In this document: in pieces, positions 5,359 through 19,150 of the stretch
Position numbering within the stretch: the stretch's first letter is position 1
How the letters are laid out: each line of letters opens with the position of its first letter
IMG/VR virus record: IMGVR_UViG_3300043398_000289
Span: 1 to 44,620 of that record
Reading direction: 5' to 3' (one strand)
DNA length: 44,620 nucleotides
Origin: a virus
Notes under the pieces: generated by a model
What the model was told of the DNA's origin: nothing
The model's input: only the letters and a program-made list of their open reading frames with translations
Database searches by the model: none
Made by a program: the position numbers and the translations under genes

Positions 5359-5406
5359 AACCGTATAAGGAACCCATAAGGAACACGTCAAGCGGGGTTG
5401 CCGTGG

Positions 5407-6905: not shown

Positions 6906-6984
6906 CGGTCGTCTCGCCCGGCGACCGAGCACGGCGGCTCTCCCACCGTTCGTGCTCCTGAAAGCCCAGGACGTAGGCTTGACG

Positions 6985-6998
6985 GCCGGAGAGACGGC
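6985..6998 (+). promoter_or_regulatory. GAGAGA-loop hairpin, copy 1
   Basis: GCCG, loop GAGAGA, CGGC. The same hexaloop closed by a G-C pair occurs twice before the DNA polymerase gene (14666-14679 and 14711-14726) with different stem sequences. Confidence 0.5.
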
Positions 6999-9841: not shown

Positions 9842-11401
9842 GTGGAGCGAGCCCTTAGCAAGACCCAACTCGAGGCCTGGAAGCTCTGCAAACGCAAATG
9901 GGGCTTTCCTTACCTCGAGGGGCTCCGAGGCTCGAACGAGTTCGCGACGTTCGGCACCCAGGTTCACGCTCAACTCGAGCGTTGGCTGGCGCGCGGTGTC
10001 CTGCCCGATCCGTACCTGCCCGAGGGCAAGGTTGCCGAAAGCGGGCTTCAACATCTGCCACCTCCGAGCACGCCCGGCTTGCTTGTCGAGACCGAGGTCT
10101 TCACGATCACGAACGAGTCGGTTTACCACGGGTTCGCCGACTGGATCGAGCCGCCCGTTGACGGTGTGCCCGTCATCGGCGATCACAAGAGCACAGTCGA
10201 CTTCAAGTGGTCCCTCACACCCGAGGACCTCGAGCAAGACATCCAGGCCAACATCTACGCGCGCGCAGCGATGCAGCTGTACGACGTCGATCGGGCCGAG
10301 GCTCGCTGGATTTACTACCGCACACGTGGAGCGCCGAAGTCTCACGTGGTCTCGCGCAGTTTGACCCGCGAAGGTGTCGAGCGTGTGTTCCTCGAGGTCA
10401 TCGACCCGCTGGCGGCAGAAATCCAGGCAGCATGGGAGCAGAGGCCGCGAGTGCTCGAACTCGAGCCGAACCCGCGAGCCTGCAACGATTTCGGTGGCTG
10501 CCCATTCCGGGAAAGCTGCTCGATGGATGCGAAAGGACGGTTGATCGCTATGGTGGCACACAGCGGACTTGCAGCGCAGATGAAGGCCAAGGCGGAGGCC
10601 AAGAAGGCGGCCGAGGCCCAGGCTTCGACCACAACCCCGAAGGCGGCCGAGGCCCAGGCTTCGACCACAACCCCGAAGGTGGCCGAGGCCGAGGCCCCGA
10701 CCGGGGGGATCAACCCTCCCGAGGGCCAGGCCTCCAAGGTGCCGCTCAAGGACCGGCTCAAGAGCCTCTCCAAGGCCGCCAAGGGCGAGACCCCGGCGAC
10801 CCCCGCCCCCGAGACGCCAAAGGCCACGGAGGACCCTCCGGAGGTCAAGATCGGGGACTTCTGGGCGCATGGCTCGGACAAGAAGCCCTCGCAGGTCGTC
10901 GCGATCGGACCCGGCGACCAGGTCGCCCTGAACGACGGGACGTCTTCGGTGACGACCTCGACCAAGTTCCTGCGGAACCCGACGACCGGATGGCGCTTCG
11001 TGCGCTCCGGAGGCGCTCCGGAGGCCTCGAGCGAGCCGACCCAGGCGAAGGCCGCCCCCGAGAAGCCGAAGGCCACGAAGACGGCTCCGGAGCCCGCCGC
11101 GAGCACCGGGTCGGGCTTCACCCTTCTGTATGGGTGTTTCCCGACCCAGGGTCCGGGGGTCACGCACGCGACCGACTACATCGGCCGAGCCAAGCACATG
11201 ATCGAGAGCGAACTCGGTCTGCAGGACTACAGGCTCGCGGAGTTCGGCAAGGGTGCAGGTCTGCTCGCAGCGGCAACCCGCCAGTGCATCGCCGACGACC
11301 CGCCGGATGGGCTCGTGTTCCTCGACTCTCGGACCGACGAGGGACGGCACACGTTCGAGGCATTCCGCGAGTCGGCGTCGATCGTCATCCGGTCGCTGTG
11401 A
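9842..11401 (+). CDS. PD-(D/E)XK nuclease, Cas4/RecB-like, with repetitive linker and extra C-terminal domain
   Basis: A 519-residue protein. The N-terminal 250 residues carry the RecB/Cas4 nuclease order: SKTQLEAWKLCKRKWGF, GTQVHAQLERWL, ETE, HGFADWIE-IGDHKST (active-site D and D-x-K), then QANIYARAA (motif Q-Y) and a Cys cluster CNDFGGCPFRESC which with the early Cys could hold an iron-sulfur cluster. It probably trims DNA ends in phage recombination with the SF2 helicase and RuvC-like gene downstream. From about residue 255 comes an Ala/Pro/Thr linker with a 12-residue repeat encoded by a 36-bp tandem repeat (10604-10675), a small beta domain (VKIGDFWAHGS) and a C-terminal alpha/beta domain of about 100 residues not recognised. 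Confidence 0.8.
   Translation: MERALSKTQLEAWKLCKRKWGFPYLEGLRGSNEFATFGTQVHAQLERWLARGVLPDPYLPEGKVAESGLQHLPPPSTPGLLVETEVFTITNESVYHGFADWIEPPVDGVPVIGDHKSTVDFKWSLTPEDLEQDIQANIYARAAMQLYDVDRAEARWIYYRTRGAPKSHVVSRSLTREGVERVFLEVIDPLAAEIQAAWEQRPRVLELEPNPRACNDFGGCPFRESCSMDAKGRLIAMVAHSGLAAQMKAKAEAKKAAEAQASTTTPKAAEAQASTTTPKVAEAEAPTGGINPPEGQASKVPLKDRLKSLSKAAKGETPATPAPETPKATEDPPEVKIGDFWAHGSDKKPSQVVAIGPGDQVALNDGTSSVTTSTKFLRNPTTGWRFVRSGGAPEASSEPTQAKAAPEKPKATKTAPEPAASTGSGFTLLYGCFPTQGPGVTHATDYIGRAKHMIESELGLQDYRLAEFGKGAGLLAAATRQCIADDPPDGLVFLDSRTDEGRHTFEAFRESASIVIRSL
10604..10675 (+). repeat. 36-bp tandem repeat inside the nuclease linker
   Basis: Two exact 36-base copies (10604-10639, 10640-10675) encoding KAAEAQASTTTP twice, with a degenerate third copy starting at 10676. 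The repeat keeps the frame and sits in the flexible linker. Confidence 0.85.
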
Positions 11402-11475
11402 TGCTCGGGTCGGCGATCTTCGTCGGGGTGGTTGTCCTTCTAGCGATCGCCATCATGATCCACGAGGACCCATGA
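11401..11475 (+). CDS. 24-residue single-span membrane peptide
   Basis: From ATG 11401, overlapping the nuclease stop (TGATG), to 11475. The peptide is almost entirely one hydrophobic segment (IFVGVVVLLAIAIMI) with the end HEDP. The stop overlaps the next ATG (ATGA). Tiny, but doubly coupled; a membrane-acting accessory peptide is plausible. Confidence 0.5.
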   Translation: MLGSAIFVGVVVLLAIAIMIHEDP

Positions 11476-11684
11476 TCTGGCCTTGCGGTCTGCATCAAAG
11501 CGAAGGCGAACCTCCGCTTGAGTGCCCGATCTGCAAGGCTGCATTGGCCGAGATCGAGGCCTCGCCGTTCGCGAATGGCGCACGTACACGAGCCCAGCAC
11601 AAGGCCTGGAAGGGCCGACGAGCAACCGGCAAGGACAACCAAGGACGACAGCTGTTCGGCAACAGCAGGAAGGCGAAGAAATGA
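11472..11684 (+). CDS. small zinc-finger protein
   Basis: A 70-residue basic protein with CGLH near the start and CPIC 14 residues later, a CxxH/CxxC zinc-binding arrangement, followed by a Lys/Arg-rich tail (KAWKGRRATGKDNQGRQLF). ATGA overlap upstream, and its stop overlaps the ATG at 11681. Nucleic-acid binding is likely but unproven. Confidence 0.6.
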   Translation: MIWPCGLHQSEGEPPLECPICKAALAEIEASPFANGARTRAQHKAWKGRRATGKDNQGRQLFGNSRKAKK

Positions 11685-13983: not shown

Positions 13984-14056
13984 GCCTGCAAAGCTCAAGC
14001 GGTAGAGCACCTGTTTTGTAAACAGGAGGAAGCGAGTTCGAGTCTCGCTGCAGGCT
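13984..14056 (+). tRNA. tRNA-Thr (anticodon TGT)
   Basis: 73 bases fold as a complete tRNA: acceptor GCCTGCA/TGCAGGC, D-stem GCTC/GAGC with GCGGTA loop, anticodon stem CCTGT/ACAGG with loop TTTGTAA (anticodon TGT, reads ACA), variable AGGAA, T-arm GCGAG-TTCGAGT-CTCGC. CCA is not encoded. It begins 5 bases after the preceding stop. ACA codons would be rare in a GC-rich host, so the tRNA may supplement translation. Confidence 0.9.
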
Positions 14057-14100: not shown

Positions 14101-14589
14101 ATGGGATTCTTCAAGAACATCGAGAGCGCGAAGGTCGGACTCGGCGGAATCTACTTCCTCGCCAACAAGGGCGAGGGCCACACCGAGAAGGAGCCGAAGT
14201 GGATCCCGGCGTCGTACGACCTCGAGATCCTCAAGATTACGACGATGACCTCGCGCAAGAAGGACGACCTGTTCATCGTCGAGTGCAAGATCATCAAGTC
14301 GGACTGTCCCGAGCGCAAGGCGGGCATCTCGGCTTCGTGGGTCGTGAACCTCAAGCAGGACGCCGCGATGGGCAACATCAAGGGCTTCATCGCAGCGGCG
14401 AACGGCATCGACCCCAGCGACGAGGAGGCCGTCAACGAGGCCGTGACGGAGGAAGTCTGCGAACTCGCGGTCTCGAACGATCAGCCGCTCGCGGGCAACA
14501 AGATCCACCTCGAGTGCATCATGATCAAGACGCGCGAGAACAAGGACTTCACGCTCCATCGCTGGTCGCCTGCGGCCGAGGCTGCGTGA
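14101..14589 (+). CDS. DUF669-like putative single-strand DNA-binding protein
   Basis: A 162-residue protein starting MGFFKNIESAKVGLGGIYF, with an OB-like strand pattern (YDLEILKITTM, DLFIVECKII, SASWVVNL) and HRW near the C-terminus. This layout resembles DUF669-type proteins that phages encode beside DNA polymerases and which are thought to bind single-stranded DNA. AGAAGG gives the ribosome site. It is flanked by the tRNA-Thr and the polymerase leader. Assignment is by resemblance. Confidence 0.55.
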   Translation: MGFFKNIESAKVGLGGIYFLANKGEGHTEKEPKWIPASYDLEILKITTMTSRKKDDLFIVECKIIKSDCPERKAGISASWVVNLKQDAAMGNIKGFIAAANGIDPSDEEAVNEAVTEEVCELAVSNDQPLAGNKIHLECIMIKTRENKDFTLHRWSPAAEAA

Positions 14590-14593
14590 CTCT

Positions 14594-14617
14594 CGAGGCC
14601 GCGCGAAACCGTGGCCT
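14594..14617 (+). terminator. hairpin after 14589
   Basis: GAGGCC/GGCCTC stem with a 12-base interior, five bases after the stop. No T-run. It may limit read-through or mark the start of the polymerase leader. Confidence 0.35.
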
Positions 14618-14665
14618 CGCTCGGAACGCCTCGGGGCGGTGAAGCCTGCAGATGACGGCGTGACA

Positions 14666-14679
14666 GTTGGAGAGACAAC
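14666..14679 (+). promoter_or_regulatory. GAGAGA-loop hairpin, copy 2
   Basis: GTTG, loop GAGAGA, CAAC, immediately before the tRNA-like fold and about 80 bases before the DNA polymerase start. Confidence 0.5.
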
Positions 14680-14680
14680 G

Positions 14681-14754
14681 AGATCCGTAGCTCAACTGGA
14701 AGAGCGCAGAGCCCGGAGAGACGGGCGGTGTCGGTTCGAATCCGGCCGGATCTG
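14681..14754 (+). ncRNA. tRNA-like structure with non-canonical anticodon arm, polymerase leader
   Basis: Acceptor AGATCCG/CGGATCT (7 bp), D-arm GCTC-AACTGGAA-GAGC and T-arm GTCGG-TTCGAAT-CCGGC are fully tRNA-like. The 24 bases where the anticodon arm should be give no 5+7+5 stem with T33. Instead they form GCCCG-GAGAGA-CGGGC (14711-14726), displaced by about 4 bases. The 3' end lies 3 bases before the polymerase ATG, so the fold occupies the place of the ribosome-binding site. It may be a decayed tRNA or a regulatory tRNA mimic. Confidence 0.65.
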
Positions 14755-14757
14755 TAG

Positions 14758-16725
14758 ATGACGCTCGCATTCGACAACGAAACATTCCTGATCGGCCAAG
14801 CGCAGGTTGCGCCTCCGCTCGTCTGTGTGTCGTTCACCGATGGCGAAGAGGTCGACGTCGTGCACCGACGCGACCCTGCCGCGTACAGGTTCGCGCGATT
14901 CGCGCTCGAGTCGGAGCACGAGCTTGTTGGGCAGAACGTGCCCTTTGATCTCGCTGTATGGTGCAACGAGTGGCCGGACCTGCTCGATCTTGTGTTCGCG
15001 GCTTACGACGCAGACCGAGTCGTCGACACGATGGTCCGGCAGAAGCTCCTGGACATCGCGCACGGCTGCTATCGTGGCTTCCGCTCCGGATTGACTGGCG
15101 TGTGGATCGAGCACAAGTATCACCTCGCCGACCTCGCGAAGAGACACACGTATCCGGTCGACCTGGACAAAGACACGTGGCGGTTGCGCTACAACGAACT
15201 CGTCGACCTCGACGTAGCCGATTGGCCAGAGGGTGCAGTTGACTACAGCGCACACGATGCGTTGTCGACTTTTCATGTGTGGCGAGCACAAGAAGCCGAA
15301 CGGCGGCTGCTCGATGACCAGTACCGCCAGTGCCGAGCCCATTGGGCTTTGCACCTGATGAGCGCCTGGGGTGTGCGTACTGATCCGGCCATGGTCGACC
15401 GGCTCGAGAAGCTCACGCGCGCCATGCTCGCCGACCACGAGGCGACGCTACTCGAACACAAGCTCATCGAGCCCAAGAAAGCCGGTGGCTTCACCAAGAA
15501 GGTCAAGCGTGCACAGGAGTTCGCGAAGGCCGCTTGGGAGCGCCGAGGCGGAGAGATGGTGCTAACCGACGGCAAGCAGGTCTCGCTGTCAGAGGACGCA
15601 GCCGAGAGGCTCGGAGACCCGGTCATCACGGCGTTTCAGCAGTTCGGCTCCGCGTCGACCATCCTGGCTCGTGTCGAAGAGCTTCGACCGGGGCTCCTGC
15701 ACACGAGGTTTGATGAACTCATGCAGTCTGGCCGGACCTCGAGCAGCAAGCCCAACATCCAGAACCGAGCGGTCGACATCATGGTGCGTCCGCGTTGCGG
15801 ACACAAGGTCAACAAGAAGAAGACTTCTTGTCCCGAGTGCAAGACGCCTTATGAGGTCGCAGGCGACAGAGAGGCGTTCGTGCCTCGCGAGGGCTGTGTG
15901 CTCCTCATGTCCGATGTGCCCGGCCTCGAGCTTCGCACGATAGCCCAGACGTGCGTCAAGATCGTTGGCTACTCGCGCCTCGGCGAGATCTTGAACGCCG
16001 GCCGCGATCCACACATCGAGGTTGCGGCGACGCTGCGCGGAATCTCGCTCGAGGAAGCCTACCGACGCAAGACCGACCCGAACGACACAGACATCTATCT
16101 TGCTCGGCAGACCGGCAAAGTCGTCAACTTCGGTCTCAACGCGCGTCTGGGATGGCGTGGCCTGATCGAGCAGGCTCGCACCAAGTATGGCGTGCTGCTC
16201 AACGAGTACGAGTCGAAGCAAGCCATCGAAGCTTACTACGCGACGCTACCTGAGATGCGCGAGTTCCACAGCTGGGTCGACGGCGAGTGTGCGAACGGCA
16301 TGGGACAAGCGATTCACCTGTTCTCCGGTCGGGTGCAAGGTCTGTTGTCGCCGACCATGATGTCGAATACCTTCTCGCAGGGGCTCGGCGCGGACGCGAC
16401 CAAGGCCGCCCTCTACGAACTCGCCCGCGTGTGCTACGTCGGCAGAGGCCAACCGCTATACGGCTCGCGCTCCGTCAACTACGTGCACGACGATTATCAC
16501 GTCGAGACGCTCGAGGAGAACCTCGACGCCAAGAGCGAGCAGATGGCCGATGTGATCTGCACCGAGATCAACAAGTGGCTGCCTGACGTTCCCGTGCCGC
16601 GTGACGAGATGCGGCCAATCGCGGCTCGCCGTTGGAGCAAGAAGGCCAAGCGCGAACTGAACCCTAACGGCACACTCGCCGTATGGGAGTGGCAAGAGTG
16701 GATCAGACAGCAGGAGGAACGATGA
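14758..16725 (+). CDS. dpoZ: family A DNA polymerase with 3'-5' exonuclease (candidate DpoZ)
   Basis: A 655-residue replicative polymerase. Exonuclease motifs: FDNETF (residues 5-10), GQNVPFDLAV (about 58-67) and DYSAHDAL (about 162). Polymerase motifs: SDVPGLELRTIAQ (motif A, about 385), RQTGKVVNFGLNARLG (motif B/O-helix, about 450) and VHDDYH (motif C, about 576). There is no 5' nuclease domain. A four-Cys insert (CGHK then CPEC, about residues 346-361) sits between the template-binding QSGRTSSSKPNIQN motif and motif A. PurZ-type phages commonly carry a PolA-like DpoZ that accepts dZTP, and PurZ/MazZ-like genes lie 0.8-3.6 kb downstream; the DpoZ label rests on that context. No Shine-Dalgarno site: the start abuts the tRNA-like fold. 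Confidence 0.85.
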   Translation: MTLAFDNETFLIGQAQVAPPLVCVSFTDGEEVDVVHRRDPAAYRFARFALESEHELVGQNVPFDLAVWCNEWPDLLDLVFAAYDADRVVDTMVRQKLLDIAHGCYRGFRSGLTGVWIEHKYHLADLAKRHTYPVDLDKDTWRLRYNELVDLDVADWPEGAVDYSAHDALSTFHVWRAQEAERRLLDDQYRQCRAHWALHLMSAWGVRTDPAMVDRLEKLTRAMLADHEATLLEHKLIEPKKAGGFTKKVKRAQEFAKAAWERRGGEMVLTDGKQVSLSEDAAERLGDPVITAFQQFGSASTILARVEELRPGLLHTRFDELMQSGRTSSSKPNIQNRAVDIMVRPRCGHKVNKKKTSCPECKTPYEVAGDREAFVPREGCVLLMSDVPGLELRTIAQTCVKIVGYSRLGEILNAGRDPHIEVAATLRGISLEEAYRRKTDPNDTDIYLARQTGKVVNFGLNARLGWRGLIEQARTKYGVLLNEYESKQAIEAYYATLPEMREFHSWVDGECANGMGQAIHLFSGRVQGLLSPTMMSNTFSQGLGADATKAALYELARVCYVGRGQPLYGSRSVNYVHDDYHVETLEENLDAKSEQMADVICTEINKWLPDVPVPRDEMRPIAARRWSKKAKRELNPNGTLAVWEWQEWIRQQEER

Positions 16726-17566: not shown

Positions 17567-19150
17567 ATGCTGATTGTTCTTTCGGGTGAGATCGCGTCGG
17601 GCAAGTCGACGCTCGCGCAGACAATGAGCCAGCGAGGCTGGACGGTCATCAAGACACGCGAGGTCATCGAGGCCATGTTCGCCCAGCGCAACGGCGGGCG
17701 AGCGCCGAAGGATCGACCCGAGTTCCAGGCGTTCGGCGACCACCTCGACGAGAACGTCCCGACGTGGCTCTCGACGGCTGCGATCGCCCAATCCCTCACA
17801 GGTGCGAACCTCGTCATCGACTCGGTGCGCCGAGAGGACCAGATCGAGTCACTGCGCGAGGTCTTCGGTCGCGTGGTCCACGTGCACCTCGAGGCGGAGC
17901 CCGGATCGCTGCGCGAGCGGTTCGAGAAGCGCGGAGACATCGACAACTACGAGCGCATCAAGGCCCAGCGCACCGAAGCCCAGGTCAACAACCTGCGGTC
18001 GATCGCCGATCTCGTCGTCAACACCTCGAGGAGCGAACCGCGCGACGTAGAGGTCAGACTCGATGCGTTCCTGAACCGCTCCGAGGTCACGCCGTGCGTT
18101 GACGTGGTCATCGGTGGCCAGTACGGCTCGGAGGGCAAGGGCCACGTGGTCTCGCACATCGCGCACGAGTACGATGCTCTCGTTCGCGTCGGCGGACCGA
18201 ACGCAGGGCACACGGTACTGCGCCCGGACAACGGCGAGAAGGTGAGCTTCTACCACATCCCGTCCGGAGCGCTGCACAGCCCACGAGCCATCCTGATCCT
18301 CGGCCCGGGAGCGGTCATCAACCCCAAGGTCCTCGAGAAGGAAGCGCAGTACCTCGGAGGGCTCGAGAAGCTGCGCGGACGACTCATGATCGACCCGCAG
18401 GCCAACGTGATCTCGGAGGACGACATCGCGAACGAGGCGGGCCTCGTGGCGTCGGTCGGTTCGACTGGTCAGGGCGTCGGAGTCGCAACCGCACGCAAGA
18501 TCGTGGAGCGCGGAACGCGCAAGCTCGCTCGCGACTGCGAGATGCTCAAGCCCTTCATGCGGCCCTCGCTCGAGATCCTCGACTACGCGTACAGGACAGG
18601 CGTCCGCGTGATGCTCGAGGGAACACAGGGAACCGGTCTGTCGCTGCACCATGGCCACTACCCGTATGTGACCTCGAGGGACACGACGGCGTCCGGAACG
18701 GCAGGCGAGGCGGGCATCCCGCCGCGTCGGATCCGCAAGGTGATCGTGGTCGTCAGGACCAACCCGATCCGCGTGCAGAGCCCGCCCGGTGGAACGAGCG
18801 GACCGATGGGTCGCGAGACGACGTGGGAGGAGATCAGCAAGCGAGCCGGTGTGCCCGCCGACGAGCTTCGCCTCAAGGAGATGACCACAACGACGAAGAG
18901 GCAGCGTCGCGTGGCCGAGTTCAACTGGCAGGACCTCCACAGGGCGACGATGCTGAACGGACCCACCGACATCGCGTTGACCTTCGTCGATTACATCGAC
19001 CACGCGAATCAGAGCGCGCGCCGCTACGAGCAACTGACCCCCGAGACGCTGCGGTTCATCGAGGAGGTCGAGCGCGTCGCTGCGTGCCCGGTCTCGCTCA
19101 TCACGACCCGCTTCCACAAGCGCTCAATCATCGATCGGAGGGCCTGGTGA
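17567..19150 (+). CDS. purZ: nucleotide-kinase-like domain fused to PurZ (N6-succino-2-amino-2'-deoxyadenylate synthase)
   Basis: A 527-residue fusion. Residues 1 to about 170 are a P-loop kinase-like domain (LSGEIASGKST at 6-15, LVIDSVRRE, LRERFEKRG lid-like segment). Residues about 178-527 are adenylosuccinate-synthetase-like: GGQYGSEGKG (Ser188 replaces the catalytic Asp of PurA), GGPNAGHT (His215 kept), GSTGQGVG, EGTQGTGLSLHHGHYPYVTSRDTT, GGTSGPMGRET and the C-terminal ITTRFHKR. Known PurZ enzymes join Asp to dGMP, giving the precursor that host PurB converts to dZMP. The fused kinase could act on dGMP or dZMP (inference). Ribosome site GAGGTGAG; it is followed by a GTGA-coupled pair of genes. 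Confidence 0.9.
   Translation: MLIVLSGEIASGKSTLAQTMSQRGWTVIKTREVIEAMFAQRNGGRAPKDRPEFQAFGDHLDENVPTWLSTAAIAQSLTGANLVIDSVRREDQIESLREVFGRVVHVHLEAEPGSLRERFEKRGDIDNYERIKAQRTEAQVNNLRSIADLVVNTSRSEPRDVEVRLDAFLNRSEVTPCVDVVIGGQYGSEGKGHVVSHIAHEYDALVRVGGPNAGHTVLRPDNGEKVSFYHIPSGALHSPRAILILGPGAVINPKVLEKEAQYLGGLEKLRGRLMIDPQANVISEDDIANEAGLVASVGSTGQGVGVATARKIVERGTRKLARDCEMLKPFMRPSLEILDYAYRTGVRVMLEGTQGTGLSLHHGHYPYVTSRDTTASGTAGEAGIPPRRIRKVIVVVRTNPIRVQSPPGGTSGPMGRETTWEEISKRAGVPADELRLKEMTTTTKRQRRVAEFNWQDLHRATMLNGPTDIALTFVDYIDHANQSARRYEQLTPETLRFIEEVERVAACPVSLITTRFHKRSIIDRRAW

Follow-up and report, generated by a model that had tools for sequence, protein, structure and literature searches.

A tRNA-like element lacking the anticodon arm abuts the DNA polymerase start codon in a viral contig

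The window analysed here, the whole 44,620-nucleotide stretch of IMG/VR virus record IMGVR_UViG_3300043398_000289, carries on its plus strand a tRNA-like element (14681-14754) that has no anticodon arm and ends directly before the start codon of a DNA polymerase gene. Judged by its sequence, the element is derived from a tRNA. The explanation that we prefer, with a probability of roughly 0.4, is that a non-decoding tRNA body has been kept as a processing mark for RNase P and RNase Z, which would leave a nearly leaderless polymerase mRNA.

Identification and fold of the tRNA-like element

The element was matched by the Rfam tRNA model (RF00005) at 41.9 bits, above the gathering threshold of 29, with an E-value of 6.6e-7, and a search of the whole record returned the identical match (E 2.8e-9). 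The alignment spanned model positions 1-71, the anticodon arm being the sole unaligned part. ARAGORN did not report a tRNA at 14681-14754; its single call was a tRNA-Thr(UGU) at 13984-14056 on the plus strand, an ordinary tRNA of 66 bits also identified by Rfam, so that the phage carries a canonical tRNA near the tRNA-like element as well. Folded alone, the 74 nt were predicted to form a cloverleaf of -31.5 kcal/mol (z -2.25), and only 3 of 200 shuffles were as good or better. The initial annotation had described a tRNA-like fold without a normal anticodon arm, to be checked by Infernal-type scoring, and the model score, the fold and the rejection by ARAGORN bear this description out.

The acceptor stem (14681-87/14747-53) consists of 7/7 Watson-Crick pairs, and the stem of the D arm (14690-14705; stem 14690-93/14702-05) is paired at 4/4 positions. 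The T arm (14730-14746; stem 14730-34/14742-46) has five pairs, one of them U-G, and the earlier statement that all three arms are perfect is thus correct for the first two and misses a wobble in the third. The discriminator base is a G (14754), and CCA is not encoded. Reading the element by hand with standard tRNA numbering, as opposed to tool output, we found the elbow nucleotides U8-A14, A15-U48, G18, G19, U54, U55, C56, A58 and A21, and the contacts U8-A14, A15-U48, G18-U55, G19-C56 and U54-A58 are all possible. A1-U72 and G73, together with the best annotated BLAST match (E 0.3), pointed to a tRNA-Trp ancestry, which was dropped when the outer parts of the element were scored against 883 tRNAs: tRNA-Arg and tRNA-Thr were best (22), with tRNA-Trp at 14.

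The hairpin in place of the anticodon arm

The interval between the D and T arms is 24 nt long and contains one T, which adjoins the T arm, and a U33 is therefore impossible. The place of the anticodon arm is taken by a hairpin at 14711-14726 (plus strand; stem 14711-15/14722-26), in which GCCCG and CGGGC form 5/5 pairs around the 6-nt loop GAGAGA. This arm is free of T, and it is displaced four positions from the normal start of the anticodon stem, with a 5-nt linker before the stem and a 3-nt variable region after it. The initial annotation was accurate in noting a GAGAGA hairpin and neither a T33 nor a 7-base loop. With an unrelated hairpin standing where the decoding arm should be, the element cannot read codons.

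The apex of this hairpin, GGAGAGAC, recurs in two further plus-strand hairpins. One, at 14666-14679, pairs GTTG with CAAC around GAGAGA and ends 1 nt before the tRNA-like element; the other, at 6985-6998, pairs GCCG with CGGC. Both have GGC[T/G]TGAC[G/A] before the stem, and the units, beginning at 6980 and 14661, have TGAC[G/A]G before the apex in common, while their stems differ by paired changes. The window contains six copies of GGAGAGAC, a number not above chance. Stems of 4 bp or more carry three of these copies (6985, 14666 and 14711), each on the plus strand. In 20,000 random regions, the same apex on two hairpins within 216 nt arose at a frequency of 0.0001. Apices common to at least three hairpins numbered 0.017 per random window on average, against two in the real window; this test was chosen after the apex repeat had been seen. 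The other recurring apex, CGTGGTTG, is found at 5403, 8343 and 29621, also always on the plus strand.

In 100 stretches from relatives, 3 of 36 GGAGAGAC octamers were located on stems of at least 4 bp, two of the three with TGAC. A hairpin unit in locus L186 is directly preceded by TTGAC and lies 36 nt before an ATG, and one in L139 is preceded by GTGAC and directly followed by a tRNA-Leu. A ribosome site formed by GGAG of the hairpin loop was also considered; its spacing to the ATG varies between cases, and it was retained as a weak idea only.

Start of the polymerase gene and its leader

The gene that follows (14758-16725, plus strand) encodes a 655-aa family A DNA polymerase with a 3'-5' exonuclease domain, and its ATG at 14758 is found 3 nt after the discriminator base. 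A TAG at 14755-57 is in frame with this ATG and rules out a start farther upstream. The start at 14758 is sound, because the homologue in a relative, L012, aligns from residue 1 and the exonuclease motif begins at residue 6; the spacing of 3 bases given in the initial annotation thus rests on homology and on a preceding in-frame stop. Such a distance of a few nt between the 3' end of a tRNA and an ATG is one of the features expected of a tRNA-punctuated, nearly leaderless mRNA. It had also been claimed that the gene has no separate ribosome site. The anti-Shine-Dalgarno energy 5' of the ATG is indeed weak at -3.3 kcal/mol, ranking 43rd among 48 genes tested in the window (median -6.6), but this is nothing special: ribosome sites were equally weak at 19 of 82 related polymerase starts, and so the weak site proves little alone.

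Upstream, a 162-aa protein without a Pfam or PHROGs family is encoded at 14101-14589 (plus strand), with 34% identity to its positional counterpart in L012. Just 3' of its gene is a strong plus-strand hairpin, CGAGGCCGCG/CGTGGCCTCG (14594-14619), which is terminator-like and without a T run. The leader also contains the 12-mer CTG[C/T]AGATGACG twice, 106 nt apart and identical at 11/12 positions. The first plus-strand copy, CTGCAGATGACG (14646-14657), is upstream of both hairpins, and the second, CTGTAGATGACG (14752-14763), runs from -6 to +6 relative to the start of the polymerase gene. By chance, the start 12-mer would be repeated in this way with a probability of 0.00035, and 216 nt would contain some such repeat with a probability of 0.06. 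Taken from sequence, the repeat hints that a leader with the tRNA-like element may have been inserted or duplicated at the polymerase start codon.

The first 8 nt of the upstream copy can pair with 14750-14757. For a transcript of 14640-14790, this pairing with the end of the element was predicted at 0.96, versus 0.02 for the acceptor stem, and for 14590-14790 the alternative helix was predicted to beat the cloverleaf by 2.6 kcal/mol. The cloverleaf was the predicted winner in 14660-14757 (acceptor stem 0.96) and 14590-14758 (0.87). As the RNA energy model leaves out tRNA tertiary contacts, the alternative pairing is a lead to a switch and is not counted as evidence.

Occurrence in polymerase relatives

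A first polymerase search yielded 19 loci and a second 75, some of them shared, and 78 relatives were usable. An element with an acceptor stem and a T arm ended at most 62 nt before the start of the polymerase match in three of these, a count that the density of such elements across the same loci would put at 0.128; the other 75 had no such element within 62 nt upstream. The elements of L012 and L039 are aberrant. That of L012 is 48 nt long, too short for both other arms, and lies between the same two genes as the element of the window, L012 and the window having the order helicase, small protein, element and polymerase in common. The L039 element, 86 nt long, is odd, its T stem having only three pairs. 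Neither carries the GGAGAGAC hairpin. In L091, a normal tRNA-Gln ends 27 nt upstream of the polymerase match. The initial annotation had held that an ordinary tRNA at this place in a related phage would speak for simple recent decay; this was encountered once, and only in a distant relative, the L091 polymerase being too distant (25% identity) for its tRNA-Gln to be called the ancestor. A T-arm-like stretch seen by eye in L025, which has the nearest polymerase (46%), turned out to be coding sequence before the polymerase, and in five relatives from bacterial genomes no tRNA before the polymerase was found with ARAGORN or by eye.

Searches with the polymerase or the 162-aa protein did not reveal close relatives of the window. 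The structural genes do have close relatives (capsid up to 79%), in which the replication module is different. Among the relatives of the terminase and major capsid protein (48 loci found), 31 records were checked and one had this polymerase; by eye, and unscored, no T-arm motif was seen there in the 260 nt before the exonuclease motif. At 17567-19150, the window encodes an adenylosuccinate synthetase of the PurZ-like phage family (phrog_1211, 2.8e-72) with an N-terminal kinase-like domain, and this similarity suggests a phage with modified adenine (Z) in its DNA.

Aberrant tRNAs in viral contigs

In 120 viral loci chosen by a T arm followed by an ATG, the elements combining a 7-bp acceptor stem with a 5-bp T arm numbered 714, and ARAGORN left 54 of them uncalled. 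Some of the 54 may be chance pairings and others broken or odd tRNAs. A general preference of aberrant tRNAs for start codons was considered and was not supported in viral contigs: an open frame of at least 50 aa was present for 4/18 uncalled elements versus 16/66 others, a count that covers 80 of the 120 loci.

A strict scan of the window and 35 other records found 28 elements, compared with 0.9 in random sequence, and ARAGORN left six uncalled: that of the window and those of L092 (the record of L012), L102, L129, L148 and L176. As their architecture and place differ, these six are not one family. L102 (the record of L046) has two tandem tRNA-like elements at 11342-11482, of which the second ends 1 nt short of the ATG that opens a 77-aa frame with no evident ribosome site. 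L176 has a 43-nt minihelix (15281-15323) with a 7-bp acceptor stem, a 5-bp T arm and a 12-nt joint. The L129 element (18451-18511) has a D arm, T arm and acceptor stem, wholly lacks the anticodon arm, and scores 43.3 bits with the tRNA model. Aberrant tRNA-like elements with different middles and a common acceptor, TAGTCAGG..CCTGACTACA, are present on different contigs in L206, L211 and L270. In L098, a tRNA-Gln and a Pro-like element appeared to abut starts; by eye there was a better downstream start with a ribosome site, and the case is not firm.

Interpretation of the element

Under the processing-mark explanation, a former tRNA gene that had lost decoding would have been retained in the polymerase leader since tRNA-processing enzymes still read its body. 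The acceptor-T stack and the elbow would direct an RNase P cut before 14681, and RNase Z would cut after 14754, since CCA is not encoded. The two cuts would detach the polymerase mRNA from the message upstream of it and create a new start, UAG-AUG, from which the polymerase may be translated as nearly leaderless. The anticodon arm would have been exchanged for a hairpin of the type that also stands directly in front of the element, and a protein or the ribosome probably binds the GGAGAGAC hairpin. The intact acceptor, D and T arms with their elbow, the shared apex, the elements in 3/78 relatives and the L102 case argue for such a mark; the base rate of 54/714 uncalled elements, the 19/82 equally weak ribosome sites, the 75/78 relatives without an element, the coding sequence in L025, the missing GGAGAGAC hairpin in L012 and L039, the lack of a start-codon preference among uncalled elements and the fold predicted for read-through transcripts argue against it.

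Slow decay of a tRNA is unlikely, because one arm is wholly changed while some 50 other positions show no disruptive change, so that the remaining choices are a break in one event and selection acting on the body. Of the two readings offered by the initial annotation, a decaying tRNA thus loses its gradual, point-mutational form and survives as a sudden break. A recent pseudogene that lost its anticodon arm in one deletion-insertion or template switch, with the rest undecayed and without a role for the polymerase, is a serious possibility, if one to which we give less than even odds. It remains strong given the base rate of aberrant tRNAs in viral contigs. The ordinary tRNA-Gln upstream of the related L091 polymerase also fits it, as does the direct repeat that flanks the element and runs across the start codon, a footprint expected from an insertion or duplication. 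A clean 5-bp hairpin with an apex that the phage also has on two other hairpins is not readily explained by such an accident, however, and neither are the differently built aberrant elements at the same place in L012 and L039. The other reading, a tRNA mimic recruited for control or processing, gains from the repeated apex and the three relatives, with processing itself as a prediction. Overall, the reused apex and the recurrent tRNA-type elements before the polymerase slightly favour selection, and the base rate and the absence from most relatives favour a relic.

We consider it unlikely that the tRNA body is only a scaffold and that the two leader hairpins, one free and one on the tRNA body, are an operator bound by a phage or host protein controlling polymerase translation or transcript elongation. 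One apex on different paired stems at 14666 and 14711, with a third at 6985, the shared bases before two of these stems, and the similar TGAC-hairpin units in L139 and L186 would agree with an operator, but the motif precedes genes of different kinds and few octamers of the relatives are on such stems. That the element is a working, very unusual tRNA decoding through a shifted anticodon arm is hardly credible: the intact body scores above the tRNA threshold, yet the missing U33 and 7-nt loop, the 5-nt linker, the 3-nt variable region and the lack of an ARAGORN call all speak against it. An assembly error or mosaic contig joining a tRNA to foreign sequence appears just as improbable; the record is a virus contig for which searches found no near copy for comparison, but the gene order on both sides agrees with L012.

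Relation to known systems and significance

The element resembles canonical bacterial and phage tRNAs in its acceptor, D and T arms, elbow nucleotides and length, and differs from them in lacking the anticodon arm and U33 and in going unrecognised by ARAGORN. In mammals, tRNA-like units such as mascRNA and MEN-beta RNA (RF01684) are cut by RNase P and RNase Z at a 3' end. Like mascRNA, the element is a non-decoding tRNA body beside a longer RNA, but it exceeds mascRNA in length, includes a complete D arm and is located at a 5' end, and its processing is a prediction. Among matches listed up to E 10, none to RF01684 was found in the window stretch; L012 scored 26 bits, below the threshold of 42.5, and L039 13.9 bits. 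In mitochondrial tRNA punctuation, a tRNA body between two messages frees a downstream mRNA that is almost leaderless. By analogy, the phage element could free a near-leaderless mRNA in the same manner, although mitochondrial tRNAs decode, the phage element cannot, and punctuation in the phage is a proposal.

The non-tRNA phage substrates of RNase P named in the available part of one source are M3 RNA, antisense C4 RNA and T4 gene 32 mRNA (PMC11143913). These are likewise phage RNAs potentially cut for a tRNA-like shape, and that part of the source describes none of them as a tRNA that lacks its anticodon arm and adjoins a start codon (PMC11143913). In the literature listings searched and in passages of PMC4247193 and PMC11143913, no tRNA without an anticodon arm was found in front of a phage start codon. 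New here are the recurrence of the apex GGAGAGAC in hairpins and the presence of elements with an acceptor stem and T arm before the polymerase in 3/78 relatives.

A wider proposal, which we regard as rather improbable, is that, in phages having a polymerase of this type, non-decoding tRNA bodies serve as punctuation and are cut by host RNase P and RNase Z to make nearly leaderless replication-gene mRNAs, with a phage-specific hairpin grafted at the anticodon position for control. If the element is cut as proposed, the host tRNA-processing machinery would act as a switch or punctuation for a key phage replication gene, and some aberrant tRNAs of phage genomes, easily dismissed as broken genes, would be working RNA elements.
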